From: Caenorhabditis elegans
Taxonomy: Eukaryota; Nematoda; Chromadorea; Rhabditida; Rhabditidae
DNA length: 64,000 nucleotides
NCBI RefSeq assembly: GCF_000002985.6
Contig: NC_003281.10
Span: 10,168,001-10,232,000, forward strand
Direction of reading: 5' to 3'
Each line of letters begins with the position of its first letter. The first letter of the stretch is position 1. Of this stretch, positions 43,941-60,194 are shown piece after piece. A program made the position numbers and the translations under genes. A model generated the notes under the pieces. It searched no databases. It saw only the letters and a program-made list of their open reading frames with translations, and was not told the DNA's origin.

Positions 43941-44542
43941 TTTTCTGCAATCGTGATATTTTTCAAAAAAATTGTGTTTATGAAAAAGAAATCAGTAAAG
44001 TAATAAAAGCTATGAACAGGAGAATTGAATGTGAAACATTGAAACGTAGAATAAAATCGATACTGAAACGGGAGCTCGCTTAGAACGGGAGGGGAGGGGG
44101 ACACCAATTCTATTTCTAGGCCACTGGAGCCTTTGGAATATTATTGTCGCTGGGTTATCTGAATTCTGAGAATGCGTATTGCGCAACATATCTGACGCGC
44201 AAAATATATCAGCGCTACAGTAGTCATTTAAAGAATTACTGTAGTTTTCGCTACGAGATATTTTGCGCGTCAAATGTGTTGCGTAATACGAATTCTCCGA
44301 ATCTTGTGTTCACGTAATAGCAACCACTATAGCTTAAATCGCGGCGAGACCCAATCGGAGATAATAGTAAAACCAAATTCTCAACCCTCAACTGAGCTTC
44401 CGATCTTTGATCAAAACACCGTTGGCATTTAATTATCCGTCGAATCAGCATTCATTTTAAATTCAAAATGTAATCGGATTTTGTTTCTCTCTCGGAAAAT
44501 ACATCGATTTTTCTCCATTCTTTTCAAACAGTCTCGAATGAT
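43941..44542. promoter_or_regulatory. Divergent upstream region of blos-1 and the bestrophin gene
   Basis: About 600 bp between divergent start codons, so both promoters should be here. It contains a palindromic repeat (about 44163-44303), and a splice acceptor (TTTTCAAACAG, to 44531) immediately before the bestrophin start. A G-rich run (GGGAGGGGAGGGGG at about 44088) is present. No gene is visible. Confidence 0.45.
44163..44303. repeat. Palindromic element with GCGCAAAATAT arms
   Basis: The left arm has CTGAGAATGCGTATTGCGCA and GACGCGCAAAATAT, with the inverse ATATTTTGCGCGTC and TTGCGTAATACGAATTCTC at the right and a CTACAGTAGTCATT core. Related copies lie at 55037-55223, and a half copy lies at about 44670-44725 in bestrophin intron 1. 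Confidence 0.65.
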
Positions 44543-46746
44543 ATGACTGTCAGTTACAATCAGTCTGTGGCCACTTCAAGGCCTTGGACTTTTCTAGCCC
44601 TTATCTTCAGGTGAGAAGCTTGATTAATTAATTATTAGCATATTTTGTATTTACACAAAAATACATATTTAACGCGCAAAATATCTCGTAGCGAGAACTA
44701 CAGTAATTCTTCCAATTAATACTGTAACACTTGTGTCGATTTACAAAATATATCTCAGAATATCATGAATATAATAATCCTGTAATATACACCAATTTCT
44801 AGATGGCGTGGGTCTGTGTGGAGTGCAATTTGGATACAGTACTCCGTGTGGTTGGGATTATATTTCTTGGTCTCTGCCATATATCGATTCATCCTCTCCG
44901 CTTATCAACAACAGATATTTGTTCGATTAGTTGACTATGTAAACTCTCGAATGTCGTACGTTCCCTTAGATTGGATGCTGGGATTCTTCATTGCAGGTGT
45001 TCTACGAAGATTTTGGTATTTGTACGATATTATTGGATTTATTGATAAGTTAGTATTATCTAATCTAATACAAGAATATTCTTGAAACTATAGTAGGTCT
45101 AAGAAAAGGTTAATTTCAGTATTGCCTGTTCAACGGCAACCTATATAAGAGGAGACAGCGAACGAGCAAAACAGTATCGCAGGAACATTATTCGATATTG
45201 TGAACTGACTCAAGTCCTAATTTTCCGTGATTTGTCAATGAAAGCTCGTAAACGATTCCCAACTTTGGATACAGTAGCTGCAGCTGGATTCATGATGCCT
45301 CATGAAAAAGCGAATTTCGATCTGATTCAGTACAATTATAATAAGTATTTTCTACCATTCAACTGGGCATGGGCTCTTGTGTACAATGCACGGAAGGAAG
45401 GATTAATTGAAGGAGACTATTATGTTACAGTAATCTCTGAAGATATCAAAAAGTTCCGTACAGGACTGGCTTGGGTTTGTAACTACGATTGGGTGCCACT
45501 GCCGATTATCTACCCAACTATTGTATGTTTGGCCGTTCATATGTACTTTTTTGTCGGAATTCTGGCTCGCCAATATGTTAAAGGCTCAGAAATTGATCCT
45601 GATATGGTAAATTATTTCAGTTTTTTAAATTATTGTTAAATATTATTAAATATTTCAATTTTTAGATAGATCTTGTATTCCCATTTATGACAAGTATCCA
45701 ATTTGTTTTCTATATGGGTTGGTTGAAAGTCGGAGAAGGTCTACTGAATCCATGGGGTGAAGATCCTGATGATTTTGAGACGAATATGCTGATCGACAGA
45801 AACTTGGCGGTAAGCATTTGAAAAAAAAAGGCGGCAAAGGTTTTGCAATACTGCGGCGCGGTTTGATGCATGTCGAATCACGAGAAATTCGTAAATCGGC
45901 ACACAATAAAACGCCTTGCAAAACCTGCTCTTTTTTAGTCCGAAACTAGAATCTGCGAAATTTCAGATGGGTTTGAAAATAGTCGACGAAGGCTATGATA
46001 AAACGCCAAGGCTGGAAAAAGACGCATTCTGGGATGACACGTGGGTTCCACTGTATTCAGAGGCTAGTGCACATGAAAAACGATACCATCAGAGGCAAGG
46101 ATCATTGGCACATATCAAGTAATACAAAAATTCAAAATTTGATTAAATCGATAATAACTTTTTCTAGAATTGGGCGATCTGTATCACAAGTCAGAATGGT
46201 TCCCCGAGATGGGCGACGAGCAAGCATTGTTAAGGAGAGAATTGTAAATGTGAAACCGTGAGTTATCGTTATTTCACAAGATTCTGGCATTTCTTCTTAA
46301 AGGCGCATAGTTCTTTTCAGATGGGTCTTGGCGCGCAAGTCAGGTTATTTCTAAAAAATATAATCTTTTTGTTTTCTTTTTAGAAAAATAATAAGAATAA
46401 AACAAAAATCGCTAAAAACAAAGTAATTTAATTGTAAAATGCGAGGAAAATAAATAAAGACTACCATAAACTTTTTTGCGCGCTGAGACCATCTGAATAA
46501 TACCATGCGCCTTTAAGATAATAATATAGGATTAAACTTTTTCTAAACACGAATGAATCTAGAGGAAGTGGAATCGGTGATATTCTTCGACCATCTTCAC
46601 TTCTCAACCTAATGAAACACGCTTCCTCGTCACGCAGTTTGGAGCGGCAGAGAAGTCCCGGAAGCTTCAGAATGGAAACTCTGACGCCTGGCTCGCCAAC
46701 AAATACACCGATTGAACCCATTGATAAAATTGATAAGAAAAAATAG
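44543..46746 (+). CDS. best-14: Bestrophin-family chloride channel
   Basis: Bestrophins are pentameric calcium-activated anion channels of the plasma membrane. Seven exons (44543-44610, 44803-45048, 45120-45606, 45666-45809, 45967-46118, 46168-46257, 46563-46746) join to 456 residues. The family pattern is clear. [20 protein letters not shown] is the first membrane segment and [20 protein letters not shown] follows. [25 protein letters not shown] and [11 protein letters not shown] come next. The calcium-clasp acidic motif [13 protein letters not shown] and the following MLIDRNL are intact. The last 90 residues are a Ser/Arg/Pro-rich cytoplasmic tail, shorter than in human BEST1. The symbol best-14 (T20G5.4) is from memory and less certain than the family. 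The last intron (46258-46562) is mostly an inverted-repeat element. Confidence 0.88.
46295..46517. repeat. Inverted-repeat element in the last bestrophin intron
   Basis: The left end is CTTAAAGGCGCAT then CAGATGGGTCTTGGCGCGCA. The right end has TGCGCGCTGAGACCATCTG then ATGCGCCTTTAAG, its inverse complement. Arms are about 45 bp. The element ends 45 bp before the final exon, which encodes the channel's C-terminal tail. Confidence 0.7.
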
Positions 46747-50953: not shown

Positions 50954-53900
50954 ATGTTTTGGTCGCGAGTTCAGTTCGCGGCACGAAGGAGAGAAGACAG
51001 TCGACCGCTTTACCGAAGAATCTTCACAAATCGTCGACTTGACATCGCTCATAAGGGTAAGAACATGATTTAGACAACGATTTATTTAATCGAAACATGA
51101 CGAATATGTTTTCCAAGTTGTAGTACTCAGGCAACTCAAATCTAATATGAAAATATTAAATAGCAATATTTTCGTAGTTGGGTGATATTTCAAGATAAAA
51201 TCGCAATATTCCGAGACTTATTCGAAATCTTTTTAGATTGAGCAATCTTTTGAGAATATTTCGCAATATTTTGAGGTTGATTCGCAATATTTCTGAATCT
51301 GAAAATATTACGAAAAATTCGTAATATTTTGAGATGACATAGCAATCTTTTGAGATTGGTTCGCAATCTTTCTGAAATCTAAAAATATTACAAAAAAATG
51401 TGTAATATTCTAAGATTAATTTGCAATCTTTTTGCAGTCCATAAAGATTACGAAACACCATTTCCAAATTTCCATCGGCTTCACATGATCGTGATATATA
51501 TACAACAATTATGATTACTGTTCCGTTCTAAATTCTCTTTTCTTCCAAATGATAAAAGACTTTTCAAAGTAAAAAACAGCTACATGAAAATCTATATAAT
51601 GGAGCATCTCACTGTTAACGGATATTTGATTTTTCGTTGCATATTGTAGAAGGAGTTTTTGCAGAGAAAGCCATAGAATTCACAAATCTGTCCACTCATG
51701 TAATTTTTTCTAGATAATTGGCCGGTCATATTACAAATTCAGTCAAACAATCACGAAGATTGGTCGAATATATTAAAGTAGACTTACAACTATTCATTCA
51801 CGCGTGATGCGTTTGAGATTTTCTGATTTCAATTGAAATCATAAAATATTGTCAACAGCAAGCATGTTCCCAGTATACTCATCATTTTAATCAAATTGTT
51901 AGTGAAAAAAAATATTGAAAAAATAAAATGTTTTTCTCTCTTTGACAAAAATTCGGAAAAATTGCACATCTAACTTTTTTAAAAGCATAACAAATAAATC
52001 GTTTTTCCACATTCGCTTTCAAAGAAAGTTATCCAATTTCGCTCTGACACTTAGAAAATTTGCGAAAAGTCACTGATTTCCCATCAAAGGTAACGAAAAG
52101 GACGTGCGCCCATCAACTATTTACTTAAGCAATAACTAAATCTAGATGCGACACGTACAGGATGGCTCAACAGGTAAGATAATGGTTTATAGACTCAACG
52201 ACAAGCGACGGACAAGTTCAACTCCCCTCAATGGCAACAAAAGTTCTTCGAGTTATCACAAAACAGTTCTAGAATAGTCGATGAATGCATTTTTAATATT
52301 TAGAGACAAATTCGCAATATTTTGAGACAAAATCGCAATATTCTGAGACGAAATCTCAATCTTTGCAGATGAAATCTCAATCTTCGGAGACGAGTTCGCA
52401 GTCTTTTGAGACAAATTAGTAATATTTTGAGATAAAACGGAAGTCTTCCTAGAAATTTTCACACTTTCGCAATATTTTGAGATGAAATTGTAATCTTTTG
52501 AGACAAAATTGAAATCTATTCGAAATTTTTAGTAATCGTATATGGACGCACTATTTCTCGTTTTTACTACAAAAATATTGCTATTTAATATTTTCATATT
52601 AGATTTGAGTTGCCTGAGTAATGCTTTGAAAGATTGATTTTCCAGTTACTCAGGCAACTCAAATCTAATATGAAAATATTAAATAGCAATATTTTTGTAG
52701 TAAAAACGAGAAATAGTGCGTCCATATACGATTACTAAAAATTTCGAATAGATTTCAATTTTGTCTCAAAAGATTACAATTTCATCTCAAAATATTGCGA
52801 AAGTGTGAAAATTTCTAGGAAGACTTCCGTTTTATCTCAAAATATTACTAATTTGTCTCAAAAGACTGCGAACTCGTCTCCGAAGATTGAGATTTCATCT
52901 GCAAAGATTGAGATTTCGTCTCAGAATATTGCGATTTTGTCTCAAAATATTGCGAATTTGTCTCTAAATATTAAAAATGCATTCATCGACTATTCTAGAA
53001 CTGTTTTGTGATAACTCGAAGAACTTTTGTTGCCATTGAGGGGAGTTGAACTTGTCCGTCGCTTGTCGTTGAGTCTATAAACCATTATCTTACCTGTTGA
53101 GCCATCCTGTACGTGTCGCATCTAGATTTAGTTATTGCTTAAGTAAATAGTTGATGGGCGCACGTCCTTTTCGTTACCTTTGATGGGAAATCAGTGACTT
53201 TTCGCAAATTTTCTAAGTGTCAGAGCGAAATTGGATAACTTTCTTTGAAAGCGAATGTGGAAAAACGATTTATTTGTTATGCTTTTAAAAAAGTTAGATG
53301 TGCAATTTTTCCGAATTTTTGTCAAAGAGAGAAAAACATTTTATTTTTTCAATATTTTTTTTCACTAACAATTTGATTAAAATGATGAGTATACTGGGAA
53401 CATGCTTGCTGTTGACAATATTTTATGATTTCAATTGAAATCAGAAAATCTCAAACGCATCACGCGTGAATGAATAGTTGTAAGTCTACTTTAATATATT
53501 CGACCAATCTTCGTGATTGTTTGACTGAATTTGTAATATGACCGGCCAATTATCTAGAAAAAATTACATGAGTGGACAGATTTGTGAATTCTATGGCTTT
53601 CTCTGCAAAAACTCCTTCTACAATATGCAACGAAAAATCAAATATCCGTTAACAGTGAGATGCTCCATTATATAGATTTTCATGTAGCTGTTTTTTACTT
53701 TGAAAAGTCTTTTATCATTTGGAAGAAAAGAGAATTTAGAACGGAACAGTAATCATAATTGTTGTATATATATCACGATCATGTAAAGCCGATGGAAATT
53801 TGGAAATGGTGTTTTGTAATCTTTATGGACTGCAAAAAGATTGCAAATTAATCTTAGAATATTACACATTTTTTTGTAATATTTTTAGATTTCAGAAAGA

Positions 53901-54378
53901 TTGCGAACCAATCTCAAAAGATTGCTATGTCATCTCAAAATATTACGAATTTTTCGTAATATTTTCAGATTCAGAAATATTGCGAATCAACCTCAAAATA
54001 TTGCGAAATATTCTCAAAAGATTGCTCAATCTAAAAAGATTTCGAATAAGTCTCGGAATATTGCGATTTTATCTTGAAATATCACCCAACTACGAAAATA
54101 TTGCTATTTAATATTTTCATATTAGATTTGAGTTGCCTGAGTAATTCTTTTTCTTTTCAGTAATTGTCCGATCCATCCTTGGTTTCCTCGTTTTCAGTAC
54201 TTCATATTGTATCATCAACGCAGGAATCTACTACAAGTAAAGGATTAAAATCCATTATATTTTATATAACTTTCCATAAAATTCCAGGTTTGTGCGACCA
54301 ATCCGTCAAGAAGAGCGAGAACTTCTGGAGAGAGAACTAATCGAGGCAGATAAGGCCGGATTTGCGTTCAAAAAGTGA
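50954..54378 (+). CDS. Small mitochondrial membrane protein resembling SMIM20/MITRAC7
   Basis: Three exons (50954-51056, 54161-54236, 54288-54378) join to 89 residues. The first 34 residues are strongly basic (RVQFAARRREDSRPLYRRIF), like a mitochondrial targeting segment. A single membrane span follows (ILGFLVFSTSYCIINAGIYY), then the charged tail FVRPIRQEERELLERELIEA, DKAGFAFKK. The order (span, FxRP, EE-rich helix, xAGxx) matches my memory of vertebrate SMIM20/MITRAC7, a chaperone for newly made COX1 in complex IV assembly. The similarity is short, so function is inferred. Intron 1 (3.1 kb) is almost entirely a giant inverted repeat, while the gene's other introns are minimal. The SMIM4-like frame begins 39 nt downstream of the stop. 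Confidence 0.72.
51124..52621. mobile_element. Left arm (1,498 bp) of giant palindrome, itself a TIR element
   Basis: The arm opens TACTCAGGCAACTCAAATCT and closes with the inverse AGATTTGAGTTGCCTGAGTAA, so it is flanked by its own terminal inverted repeats of about 50 bp. Near both ends it holds a degenerate array built on TCTCAAAATATTGCGAA. The centre (about 51500-52250) is unique and includes a tRNA-like patch (52161-52235). Short open frames inside (for example 51156-51467 minus) are translations of the repeat array and not genes. The arm lies in intron 1 of the SMIM20-like gene. Confidence 0.85.
52161..52235 (+). other. tRNA-like patch with A-box and B-box motifs
   Basis: TGGCTCAACAGG (52163-52174) matches the pol III A-box consensus TRGCNNARYNGG. 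AGTTCAACTCCCC (52215-52227) resembles the B-box GGTTCGANTCC with one or two changes. Spacing is near that of a tRNA. I cannot fold a clean cloverleaf, so it may be a tRNA-derived relic. An inverted copy lies at 53032-53106 in the other arm. Confidence 0.35.
52622..52645. other. 24-bp loop of the giant palindrome
   Basis: The only unpaired bases between the two arms. Outer and inner arm ends share the same centre of symmetry (52633.5), which shows the arms are equal in length. Confidence 0.8.
52646..54143. mobile_element. Right arm (1,498 bp) of giant palindrome
   Basis: This is the inverse complement of 51124-52621. It begins TTACTCAGGCAACTCAAATC and ends GTTGCCTGAGTA. Translating both arms gives an identical 68-codon frame (52256-52462 minus and 52805-53011 plus). 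The 103-codon frames at 51156-51467 minus and 53800-54111 plus differ by one residue (Arg to Cys). A second difference is seen near 51482 versus 53785. Identity is therefore very high. The arm ends 17 bp before the exon at 54161. Confidence 0.88.
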
Positions 54379-54417: not shown

Positions 54418-54709
54418 ATGATTCGTCCGTTTTCACGTGCTCTCACTTCACTTTCTTCCAAATGGGAAGGATTGTTCTTTGTTGGCTTTACTGCTGGAGC
54501 TGGTTTTGAACTTTTCAAGATTTATTTCTCTTTTAATGGTAAGATTTTTTAAGTTGCTGATTAACAATTACAGTGTGTATGTATTTTCAGGTGTAAATTA
54601 CTACAGCGTTCTCAAAAAACGGCAATTACAAAAAGAGCTTGACGCATTCGAACGGCAACTCAAAGATCTGGATACAATCATTGCCACCGGACAACCTCAA
54701 ACATTTTGA
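54418..54709 (+). CDS. Small mitochondrial membrane protein resembling SMIM4/UQCC5
   Basis: Two exons (54418-54538 and 54591-54709) encode 79 residues: a short basic N terminus (MIRPFSRALTSLSSKW), one membrane span (GLFFVGFTAGAGFELFKIYF) and a charged tail (NYYSVLKKRQLQKELDAFER). The pattern FF.G...E...I followed by a tyrosine-valine/arginine-rich helix matches my memory of SMIM4, now UQCC5, an assembly factor for cytochrome b in complex III. The assignment is by pattern only. The ATG follows directly on TTTTCAG. That acceptor can serve trans-splicing, or cis-splicing from a donor at 54375 inside the last codons of the upstream gene, giving overlapping ATGA. A two-gene unit is likely. Confidence 0.72.
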
Positions 54710-55523
54710 ATGCTGTTTTAGAATAGTTAATTGTTAGGTTATTAAGTAGGTCTCCCCACGTCTCCTGATCCTGTTAAAACGGCTTTTTCTGTTGTCTCTC
54801 ATTTTCTTCATTCTTATTTGTTAATACCATTTTGATTAAAAATCTCTGAAATGTTTCATATTTAAATAACTCTATTGCTATTGACACTGAATATTTGAAG
54901 AATGCTACAACAAAAAAAAGGGTATGATTTTTCAAGAGCTTTCTGAAGCACTGAGGCATGAACGGGTAGTTTTTGACGGAAGTCTGAAAAACTACAAAAC
55001 TGATTGTGGCGTTACTTATTACGTGAACACTAAACTCTGAGAATGCGTATTGTACAACATATCTGACGCGCAAAATATCTCGTAGCGAGAACTACAGTAA
55101 TCATTTAAATGACTACTGTAGCCCTTATGATCGTTACAGTATTAATTTAGATAATTACTGTAGTTTTCGCTACGAGATATTTTGCGCGTTAAATATGTTG
55201 CGAAATTCGCATTCTCAGAATTTAGTGTACCCGTAATATTATGGTTGTTACTATTTTCCCATCCGTTACCAAAGGCCAATAGCCACAGTTAGACCATAAA
55301 TCTTGGTACATGTAAGAACGGAGGTGCAAGTTGTATTGTTTCACATTCCTCGTCGATCGATAACTGGGTCAAAGTATCGTATACTTGTTGGTAAAGGGGC
55401 GTGGTTTGCACATCCAGCGTTTATGATGATATTATCCGGTTGCCATTAGAATAGTCATTCATTCTACATTTTCAGTCAACTGGAGGTCTCACCTCAAACT
55501 CTCTTTCTCTTGTTTGAATAATT
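54710..55523. other. Intergenic region with palindromic repeat
   Basis: The 3' flank of the SMIM4-like gene, then a palindrome at 55037-55223, then AT-rich DNA. A TTTTCAG at 55469-55475 may be the acceptor for the following broken gene. I see no gene here. Confidence 0.5.
55037..55223. repeat. Palindromic element with GCGCAAAATATCTCGTAGCGA arms
   Basis: It starts CTGAGAATGCGTATTGTACA and ends in the inverse GTTGCGAAATTCGCATTCTCAG. The inner arms GACGCGCAAAATATCTCGTA and CTACGAGATATTTTGCGCGT are near-perfect complements around a CTACTGTAG-rich core. Same family as 44163-44303. Confidence 0.7.
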
Positions 55524-56162: not shown

Positions 56163-56324
56163 TCTAATTGTGTTTCTATGTTTTATAACTATTCCAATTC
56201 TATTCTAATTCATCAAACCATTTTCCAATTTCCAAAATTACTAATTATTTTGTACCCGGTTTATACATATTGTCAATAATTTTGTGCTTTAATAAAATTT
56301 TGTACCTTACATCCGAAAATACAG

Positions 56325-56612
56325 CCAAACAGAGTATATTAGCTTGTACGAAAGTATTTTTTAAAAAATTGATAAAAATATATAAAAGCTGATTTTTTCA
56401 AAAATTCAAAAGTATGGGAAAATCAAATGGAGTCATTCTTTTTTATTGCATAAAACTGTTCAGCATAGTCAAAAATACCAGAATATGCCAATCAAAGTAT
56501 AATAGCTTGTACGGAAGTATTTTTAAAAAATTGATAAAAATATATAGAAGCTGATTTTTTCAAAAATTCAAAAGTCCTGGAAAATTATATGGAGTCATTC
56601 TTTTTTATTTCA
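56325..56612 (+). repeat. Left remnant of the 164-bp satellite
   Basis: About 1.7 copies of the 164-bp unit (AGTATAATAGCTTGTACGGA, TATATAAAAGCTGATTTTTT, GTATGGGAAAATC, TTGCATAAAACTGTTCAGCA). The array breaks off at CATAAAAGTA, where the 59-bp array starts, and resumes on its far side at about 58122. Confidence 0.85.
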
Positions 56613-56624
56613 TAAAAGTATTAA

Positions 56625-58048
56625 TTATGGAAAAAATGGAAATTTAAATGTGCACTGGTTTTCAAAATTTTTTTAACTAAGAATTATGGAAAAAATGGAA
56701 ATTTAAATGTGCACTGGTTTTCAAAATTTTTTAAACTGAGAATTATGAAAAAAATGGAAATTTAAATGTGCACTGGTTTTCAAAATTTTTTAAACTGAGA
56801 ACTATGGAGAATATGGAAATTTAAATGTGCACTGGTTTTCAAAATTTTTTAAACTGAGAATTATGGAGAATATGGAAATTTAAATGTGCACTGGTTTTCA
56901 AAATTTTTTAAACTGAGAATTATGGAGAATATGGAAATTTAAATGTGCACTGGTTTTCAAAATTTTTTAAACTGAGAATTATGGAGAATATGGAAATTTA
57001 AATGTGCACTGGTTTTCAAAATTTTTTAAACTGAGAATTATGGAGAATATGGAAATTTAAATGTGCACTGGTTTTCAAAATGTTTTAAACTGAGAATTAT
57101 GGAGAATATGGAAATTTAAATGTGCACTGGTTTTCAAAATGTTTTAAACTGAGAATTATGGAGAATATGGAAATTTAAATGTGCACTGGTTTTCAAAATT
57201 TATTAAACTGAGAATTATGGAGAATATGGAAATTTAAATGTGCACTGCATTTCAAAATTTATTAAACTGAGAATTATGGAGAATATGGAAATTTAAATGT
57301 GCACTGGTTTTCAAAATGTTTTAAACTGAGAATTATGGAGAATATGGAAATTTAAATGTGCACTGGTTTTCAAAATTTATTAAACTGAGAATTATGGAGA
57401 ATATGGAAATTTAAATGTGCACTGGTTTTCAAAATTTATTAAACTGAGAATTATGGAGAATATGGAAATTTAAATGTGCACTGGTTTTCAAAATGTTTTA
57501 AACTGAGAATTATGGAAAAAAATGGTAAATTTAAATGTGCACTGGTTTTCAAAATGTTTTAAACTGAGAATTATGGAAAAAATGGAAGTTTAAATGTGCA
57601 CTGGTTTTCAAAATGTTTTAAACTGAGAATTATGGAAAAAAATGGTAAATTTAAATGTGCACTGGTTTTCACAATGTTTTAAACTGAGAATTATGGAGAA
57701 TATGGAAATTCAAATGTGCACTGGTTTTCAAAATGTTTTAAACTGAGAATTATGGAAAAAATGGAAGTTTAAATGTGCACTGGTTTTCAAAGTGTTTTAA
57801 ACTGAGAATTATGGAAAAAAATGGTAAATTTAAATGTGCACTGGTTTTCAAAATGTTTTAAACTGAGAATTATGGAGAATATGGAAATTTAAGTGTGCAC
57901 TGGTTTTCAAAGTGTTTTAAACTGAGAATTATGGAAAAAATGGAAGTTTAAATGTGCACTGGTTTTCAAAGTGTTTTAAACTGAGAATTATGGAAAAAAT
58001 GGAAGTTTAAATGTGCACTGGTTTTCAAAATGTTTTAAACTGAGAATT
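56625..58048 (+). repeat. 59-bp tandem array, about 24 copies
   Basis: The unit is GAATTATGGAGAATATGGAA, ATTTAAATGTGCACTGGTTT, TCAAAATTTTTTAAACTGA (59 bp). Variants group by position: GGAGAATATGG in the middle, GGAAAAAATGG at the ends, and TTTTTTAAAC, TTTATTAAAC or GTTTTAAAC after TCAAAAT. Units are highly similar and in one orientation. A short run built on AAAACTAAAAATA follows (58049-58118). Confidence 0.92.
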
Positions 58049-58121
58049 AAAAAAAAAAAACTAAAAATAAAACTAAAAATAAAACTAAAACTAAAAATAA
58101 AACTAAAAATGAAAATAAAAA

Positions 58122-59876
58122 TGCCAATCAAAGTATAATAGCTTATACGGAAGTATTTTTTTAAAAACTGATAAAAAATATATAAAAGCTGATTTTTTCA
58201 CATATTCAAAAGTATGGGAAAATTATATGGAGTCATTCTTTTTTATTGCATAAAACTGTTCAGCATAGTCAAAAATACCAGAATATGCCAATCACAGTAT
58301 AATAGCTTATACGGAAGTATTTTTTTAAAAATTGATAAAAAATATATAAAAGCTGATTTTTTCAAAAATTCAAAAGTATGGGAAAATCATATGGAGTCAT
58401 TCTTTTTTATTGCATAAAACTGTTCAGTATAGTCAAAAATACCAGAATATGCCAATCAAAGTATAATAGCTTGTACGGAAGTATTTTTTTAAAAATTGAT
58501 AAAAAATATATAAAAGCTGATTTTTTCAAAAATTCAAAAGTATGGGAAAATCATATGGAGTCATTCTTTTTTATTGCATAAAACTGTTCAGTATAGTCAA
58601 AAATACCAGAATATGCCAATCAAAGTATAATAGCTTGTACGGAAGTATTTTTTTAAAAATTGATAAAAAATATATAAAAGCTGATTTTTTCACATATTCA
58701 AAAGTATGGGAAAATTATATGGAGTCATTCTTTTTTATTGCATAAAACTGTTCAGCATAGTCAAAAATACCAGAATATGCCAATCAAAGTATAATAGCTT
58801 GTACGGAAGTTTTTTTTTAAAAATTGATAAAAAATATATAAAAGCTGATTTTTTCAAAAATTCAAAAGTATGGGAAAATCATATGGAGTCATTCTTTTTT
58901 ATTGCATAAAACTGTTCAGTATAGTCAAAAATACCAGAATATGCCAATCAAAGTATAATAGCTTGTACGGAAGTATTTTTTTAAAAATTGATAAAAAATA
59001 TATAAAAGCTGATTTTTTCACATATTCAAAAGTATGGGAAAATTATATGGAGTCATTCTTTTTTATTGCATAAAACTGTTCAGCATAGTCAAAAATACCA
59101 GAATATGCCAATCACAGTATAATAGCTTATACGGAAGTATTTTTTTAAAAATTGATAAAAAATATATAAAAGCTGATTTTTTCAAAAATTCAAAAGTATG
59201 GGAAAATCATATGGAGTCATTCTTTTTTATTGCATAAAACTGTTCAGTATAGTCAAAAATACCAGAATATGCCAATCAAAGTATAATAGCTTGTACGGAA
59301 GTATTTTTTTAAAAATTGATAAAAAATATATAAAAGCTGATTTTTTCAAAAATTCAAAAGTATGGGAAAATCATATGGAGTCATTCTTTTTTATTGCATA
59401 AAACTGTTCAGTATAGTCAAAAATACCAGAATATGCCAATCAAAGTATAATAGCTTGTACGGAAGTATTTTTTTAAAAATTGATAAAAAATATATAAAAG
59501 CTGATTTTTTCACATATTCAAAAGTATGGGAAAATTATATGGAGTCATTCTTTTTTATTGCATAAAACTGTTCAGCATAGTCAAAAATACCAGAATATGC
59601 CAATCAAAGTATAATAGCTTGTACGGAAGTTTTTTTTTAAAAATTGATAAAAAATATATAAAAGCTGATTTTTTCAAAAATTCAAAAGTATGGGAAAATC
59701 ATATGGAGTCATTCTTTTTTATTGCATAAAACTGTTCAGTATAGTCAAAAATACCAGAATATGCCAATCAAAGTATAATAGCTTGTACGGAAGTATTTTT
59801 TAAAAAATTGATAAAAATATATAAAAGCTGATTTTTTCACATATTCAAAAGTATGGGAAAATTATATGGGAAAATC
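58122..59876 (+). repeat. 164-bp tandem satellite, about 10.7 copies
   Basis: Units of 164 bp, each containing a TATATAAAAGC word and a GTATGGGAAAATCATATGGA word. Each unit supports a 67-codon open frame (58214, 58378, 58542 ... 59526), but these overlap by 40 nt. Because 164 is not a multiple of three they cannot be one protein, so I treat them as repeat artefacts. Variant positions show a five-unit super-repeat of 820 bp: unit types at 58214, 58378, 58542 and 58706 recur in order at 59034, 59198, 59362 and 59526. Confidence 0.93.
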
Positions 59877-60194
59877 ATATTGTGGAAACAATATTTCATT
59901 ACGGCCGAACTCTTTTGTGCTATTTTCTAGAATCATATACATAATCAAAGGTATTTAAATCATATGAGCTGAAATTCTGTACCATACAAAGTCAAAATCT
60001 TCTTCAAAAGAATATTTTATTATCACGTGTATAATATGACTCCAAAGTTCTGAAGGTTTTCATGAATCATAAAAATATTCGCATCATGTGATAAACTTCT
60101 GGGATGCACTTTTGGGTCCCGGGGTTAGCCCTAACGTCTGAAAGCAGAAATAAAATTAACTTATTAACAACATTCATTCGAGTTCCGAAAAAAA
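59877..60194. other. 3' flank of the 7TM receptor gene
   Basis: AT-rich non-coding DNA between the satellite and the stop codon of the minus-strand receptor gene. TTTATT at about 60017 is an AATAAA on the minus strand and a possible polyadenylation signal. Confidence 0.45.

Follow-up and report, generated by a model that had tools for sequence, protein, structure and literature searches.

A near-perfect 3-kb palindrome in a Caenorhabditis elegans intron very probably consists of two inverted copies of one non-coding DNA transposon

Introduction

According to the portions of the TDP-1 paper drawn upon here, introns over 1 kb contained an inverted repeat in about 25% of expressed genes (2,641) in C. 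elegans, and more than 98% of the editing regions identified there included inverted repeats, overlapped transposons, or both (PMC4282642). An excerpt of a further study cites a cut-off below -0.5 kcal/mol per nt for structured introns (PMC12401492). The locus described here likewise consists of intronic repeats in opposite orientation that would form dsRNA; compared with those structured introns, it has 2 mismatches in a stem of 1498 bp and a predicted fold of -0.83 kcal/mol per nt.

In human transcripts, inverted pairs of Alu repeats form intramolecular dsRNA that is edited by ADAR, as stated in an extract of the report in question (PMC526178). Our locus resembles such pairs in that two copies of one repeat stand in opposite orientation, but here the repeat is a DNA transposon and the copies are almost identical. 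The element is also some five times longer than an Alu.

A third point of comparison is Mu killer of maize, an inverted duplication of transposon sequence. The available part of the account of it proposes that transcription from a flanking gene gives a hairpin RNA of approximately 4 kb, and describes silencing of the transposon family (PMC3440606). The likeness lies in the inverted transposon sequence within reach of host-gene transcription; in the same part of the account, however, Mu killer includes sequence of a transposase gene and is reported to act in silencing, whereas the element studied here is non-coding and silencing by it would be a possibility. Finally, Zhao et al. 2007 described inverted gene pairs in C. 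elegans with near-identical arms, for which gene conversion was proposed (PMC1803023, in extract). The cases in that extract are pairs of duplicated genes for which counterparts of matching structure exist in other Caenorhabditis species, whereas here the pair is one of transposons, seen in one species.

An initial annotation of a 64-kb window (contig 3, 10,168,001-10,232,000; the whole stretch of DNA that was analysed, to which coordinates refer unless a locus is named) had drawn attention to a long palindrome within an intron, next to a gene of the RNA interference machinery. In the open-licence literature no paper on this palindrome was found.

Results

Direct alignment of the left arm (51124-52621) with the reverse complement of the right arm (52646-54143) gave 2 mismatches in 1498 positions and 0 indels, which bears out the near-perfect 3-kb palindrome with a 24-nt loop as initially described. 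The two mismatches are located at 51452 (G/A, mirror position 53815) and 51482 (C/T, mirror position 53785), and the loop of 24 nt (52622-52645) falls inside the inter-element spacer defined below. Beyond the arm ends the symmetry falls abruptly to scattered matches. In an independent repeat search (seed 20, minimum 60 nt), which gave 5 inverted repeats for the window, the arm pair ranked first by length, ahead of one of 112 nt at 87%; a chance origin of the symmetry of the 1498-nt arms is excluded.

The host of the palindrome is a plus-strand gene, on a clone that we take to be T20G5; the 12 titles listed, of 13 open-licence papers that name this clone, include none on editing or palindromes. 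Spliced translation and Pfam PF14880 place the coding part of exon 1 at 50954-51056 and exon 2 at 54161-54236, with intron 1 (3104 nt, 51057-54160) between them; exon 3 begins at 54288, and exons 1, 2 and 3 joined give a protein of 89 aa. The COX14 domain (PF14880; E 4.5e-07, 30 bits against a cut-off of 25) covers residues 22-73 and spans the exon 1/2 junction. Because the domain lies across the junction and the intron has GT...AG ends with the frame running through, the intron model is supported, and the gene structure points to the palindrome lying in intron 1 in the sense orientation, in agreement with the initial annotation. The label "SMIM20-like" that had been given to the gene is to be replaced: the product matches COX14 above the Pfam cut-off, and no other Pfam family at E up to 1.

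Several other features lie close by. Downstream of the COX14-domain frame there is a further small open frame (54418-54709, 79 aa when spliced), with a weak match to UPF0640 below the cut-off (E 0.0012), which may perhaps encode a second small mitochondrial protein of the same transcription unit. Also downstream of the host gene, a short hairpin element (55017-55238; 104-nt arms, 87%) has inverted relatives approximately 10 kb away, at 44208-44731, and looks like a dispersed palindromic repeat. A satellite block follows at 56324-59880, in which a 59-bp unit (about 24 copies, 56623-58049) is flanked on both sides by a unit of 162-164 bp (1.8 copies at 56324-56617 and 10.7 copies at 58121-59869, with consensus units that look alike); an AAAAAT run occupies 58051-58122 within the block. 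Rfam gave no match at the gathering threshold in window positions 40000-64000.

The symmetry is thus real and its extent was correctly given, but the initial annotation overlooked that each arm is a complete terminal-inverted-repeat (TIR) transposon of a dispersed family, the biological borders of which lie slightly inside those of the symmetry, at 51126-52618 and 52649-54141. Element 1, the left arm, is a non-coding TIR transposon of 1493 bp on the plus strand, recognised from its dispersed copies, its TIRs and a 2-bp flanking repeat. Its left TIR (51126-51178, plus strand, 53 bp) matches the right TIR (52566-52618, minus strand, 53 bp) at 52/53 positions; the sole mismatch is 51173, a substitution confined to the two arms. 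The element termini read CTCAGGCAACTC...GAGTTGCCTGAG. Element 2, the right arm, is the same transposon inverted (minus strand), with 2 differences from element 1. Between the elements lies a spacer (52619-52648) comprising TA, 26 nt of presumed original intron and a second TA, and the outer flanks are again TA, at 51124-51125 on the left and at 54142-54143, 17 nt before the intron end, on the right, such that TA is found at all four element junctions of the pair. The arms of the palindrome are therefore the elements together with their flanking TAs and one base pair that matches by accident.

A search of the whole genome (100,286,401 bases in 7 contigs) with one arm as the query returned at least 78 matching stretches, from 23 scored candidates. 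Matching stretches are carried by the 20 other loci examined, four of which hold full-length copies at 97-98% identity; the remainder are deleted, interrupted, short or diverged copies, and L025 and L027 hold only a diverged fragment. Both ends, at no more than 2 mismatches per 15 bases, were present in 14 copies, namely both arms and 12 of the 18 loci tested. The 2-bp flanks are identical in 10 of these 14 (TA in six of the ten: both arms, L009, L014, L019 and L021) and mismatched in the other four (L012, L016, L020 and L024). Because the family termini sit at both sides of the arms, each arm is a complete 1493-bp element.

The longest open frame in each arm is 123 codons; across the six full-length copies, arms included, longest frames range from 84 to 151 codons, and no frame exceeds 138 codons in the inserts that interrupt L013, L015 and L016. 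Pfam gave no match above the cut-off for five frames of the L013 insert or for the arm's two longest frames. No transposase was seen among the frames of the six full-length copies and of these three inserts, the Pfam scan covering those seven frames. TIRs, dispersed copies with the same ends, target-site duplication and the lack of a transposase gene together characterise a non-autonomous TIR transposon. That the arms are copies of such a dispersed transposon would explain the palindrome, which, judged from the sequence, very probably represents one non-autonomous DNA transposon present twice at full length, in opposite orientation, and forming an intronic hairpin.

As to the class of the element, members of the Tc1/mariner superfamily show a TA target-site duplication in every copy. 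Four copies here have other duplications, one each of GG (L010), TT (L011), AA (L013) and AT (L015), which are evidence against membership. A possible Repbase-style name, TIR54TA1, was not found in the open-licence literature.

Near both of its ends the element contains internal tandem repeats of 21 bp and 81 bp (units with AATATTTTGAGA), at 51242-51432 and 52295-52517; these have one orientation on both sides and are mirrored in the right arm. The insert that interrupts the L013 copy (contig 1) is 4.5 kb in length (L013 1589-6128), has inverted ends of its own (CACAGGTGATTCGCC...) and has TG on both sides. A separate dispersed repeat (L029-L036) bears the 20-mer CTCAGGCAACTCAAAAGTAA, with which the element end has its first 15 bases in common, and this other repeat makes up 29 of the 60 pattern hits; its kinship with the element was rejected, as the eight loci fetched gave no element hit at E 1e-5.

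The two arms share a history apart from the rest of the family. Eight substitutions (51173, 51605, 51674, 51933, 51967, 51968, 51975 and 52188) are common to both arms only, as judged against every aligned copy covering each site in an alignment of ten loci (L009-L018), with L019-L028, which contain no more than element ends, left out; four of the eight lie within 43 bp and may represent fewer events. At 51173, the single one of these sites within reach of the shorter loci, 15 left-end pieces have T in 14 cases and A in one (L027), and the C of the arms in none. A ninth shared substitution, 51771, is also found in L013, which is not full length. Among the full-length copies, each arm has one private substitution and the four others have 6, 10, 17 and 6, compared with nine that are common to the two arms. 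In a tree of the six full-length copies the two arms group together with 100/99 support, on a stem of 0.0069 and with tips of 0.00067 changes per site. Were the arms as old as the youngest of the other copies, 12 differences would be expected between them, and the probability of finding two or fewer is 0.0005. Because the divergence of the arms is far below that of the other full-length copies, we place their separation, or their last homogenisation, well after the other full-length insertions. The earlier suggestion of a recent origin or gene conversion fits with these eight shared substitutions against one private substitution per arm, and with 2 differences in 1498 positions.

For the RNA, the predicted MFE of intron 1 is -2569.2 kcal/mol (-0.83 kcal/mol per nt), with 1527 pairs, 1498 of which lie within one position of the palindrome axis; the model thus concurs with the initial expectation of approximately 1.5 kb of dsRNA from the pre-mRNA. 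The first 1700 nt alone (the left arm, the spacer and about 110 nt of the right arm) have a predicted fold of -463.3, which is far weaker, and the great stability therefore depends on the second arm. From the 5' splice site to the base of the stem there are 67 nt, and 17 nt separate the base from the intron end.

The adjacent gene on the minus strand, which we take to be rde-4, has a double-stranded-RNA-binding motif in its first exon (Pfam dsrm, E 3.4e-05), consistent with that identity, and its start codon is 480 bp away on the other strand. The initial annotation had speculated on a functional link between the hairpin and this gene, and the sequences do not bear it out: exact matches of the element to the rde-4 gene stretch reach at most 12 nt, where 20 shuffles of the stretch give 9-12 nt and 5 of the 20 reach 12. 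Against the host exons the longest exact match is 13 nt, a figure given without shuffles. With matches of 12 and 13 nt, the idea that siRNAs target rde-4 or the host exons was rejected, and siRNAs of the hairpin are not expected to target rde-4. The palindrome's position beside a gene of RNA interference is probably a matter of chance, and the hairpin is most likely not a regulator of rde-4.

Discussion

We note that intron 1 without the two elements and one TA each amounts to 114 nt, and the simplest history, as we reconstruct the order of events, would be two insertions into an ancestral intron of approximately that length, at two TAs 26 nt apart. One copy would have inserted first, and the second would have arisen by a local hop of the first to the second TA, for instance during replication and onto the sister chromatid, the element being mobilised by a transposase presumably encoded elsewhere; the arms would then have acquired a substitution apiece, possibly accompanied by gene conversion. 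Random insertion of some 20 copies in 100 Mb would be expected to give about 1e-4 pairs within 30 bp. Two unrelated insertions so close together are thus very unlikely, and a local hop is our best guess for the second copy, one that we consider probable. We hold it with less confidence than the anatomy of the pair, because the competing accounts of duplication and of independent insertion concern the hop step only. We considered and rejected the possibility that the pair arrived as a 3-kb composite whose donor site survives: the 27-nt core of the spacer has a single occurrence in the genome even when up to 3 mismatches are allowed.

Alternatively, replication template switching or break repair might have duplicated a single inserted element in inverted orientation, the switch back having taken place inside the TIRs. 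Near-identical arms with private substitutions in common are what such an event would leave, and the 53-bp TIRs offer homology for the switch; moreover, since TA is its own reverse complement, the presence of TA at four junctions is compatible with it. However, the mirror symmetry stops at the element ends plus TAs plus one base, as a transposase would leave it, and this makes a template-switch duplication the less likely course. A switch back in the TIRs should also leave the right flank similar to the spacer, whereas the observed likeness is at chance level (506 of 2000 shuffles equal or better). For the left flank 217 of 2000 shuffles did as well, and the spacer as a copy of either flank was rejected. 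We regard inverted duplication as unlikely.

The two copies might instead be independent old insertions that have been kept alike by gene conversion from arm to arm, as was proposed for the inverted gene pairs in the extract from Zhao et al. (PMC1803023). The rarity of close pairs under random insertion, about 1e-4 within 30 bp for some 20 copies, weighs against this, and gene conversion is unneeded if the pair is recent; we find this history distinctly improbable.

A different kind of proposal, compatible with any origin, is that the locus has been retained for a function, its siRNAs silencing the transposon family in the manner that the excerpted account ascribes to Mu killer (PMC3440606). 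Read-through expected from the host promoter, a long and near-perfect predicted stem and the 20 other loci with homologous stretches would suit such a role. The arms, however, hold no recognisable transposase gene, and apart from the identity of the arms, which their youth explains, we see nothing that points to selection; we consider retention for silencing improbable. Its extended form, in which intron transcripts would be processed by RDE-4 and Dicer into siRNAs that silence the family in trans, while chromatin marks at the hairpin affect rde-4 expression on account of the 480 bp that separate it from the rde-4 start codon, we consider exceedingly improbable.

Long palindromes are hard to clone and assemble, and the genome searched is the same assembly and so gives no independent check, but an assembly artefact is very unlikely given that two sites distinguish the arms, with each arm carrying the derived state at one of them, and that the spacer and both flanks are distinct.

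Once transcribed, the intron would fold into a near-perfect stem of approximately 1.5 kb, which would bring the splice sites about as near to each other as they were in the short ancestral intron and leave the pyrimidine tract free. With the splice sites brought close and the tract free in this model, splicing probably tolerates the hairpin. The transcribed strand, transcription being read from the gene structure, would present the long near-perfect dsRNA that ADARs target. Since intronic inverted repeats are common and edited regions hold them, the hairpin is to be expected as an ADAR substrate, and it is most likely an incidental one. Perhaps it also gives rise, at a low level, to siRNAs against the transposon family.

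The hairpin, notable for its length and perfection, is not a new kind of structure; it represents a strong case within a class common in C. elegans. With approximately 1.5 kb of predicted dsRNA that is almost free of mismatches, it offers a clean natural substrate on which to study how a single transcript is divided among ADARs, Dicer and the spliceosome. The locus further suggests that one or two steps, through a local transposon hop, can be enough to create a long hairpin.
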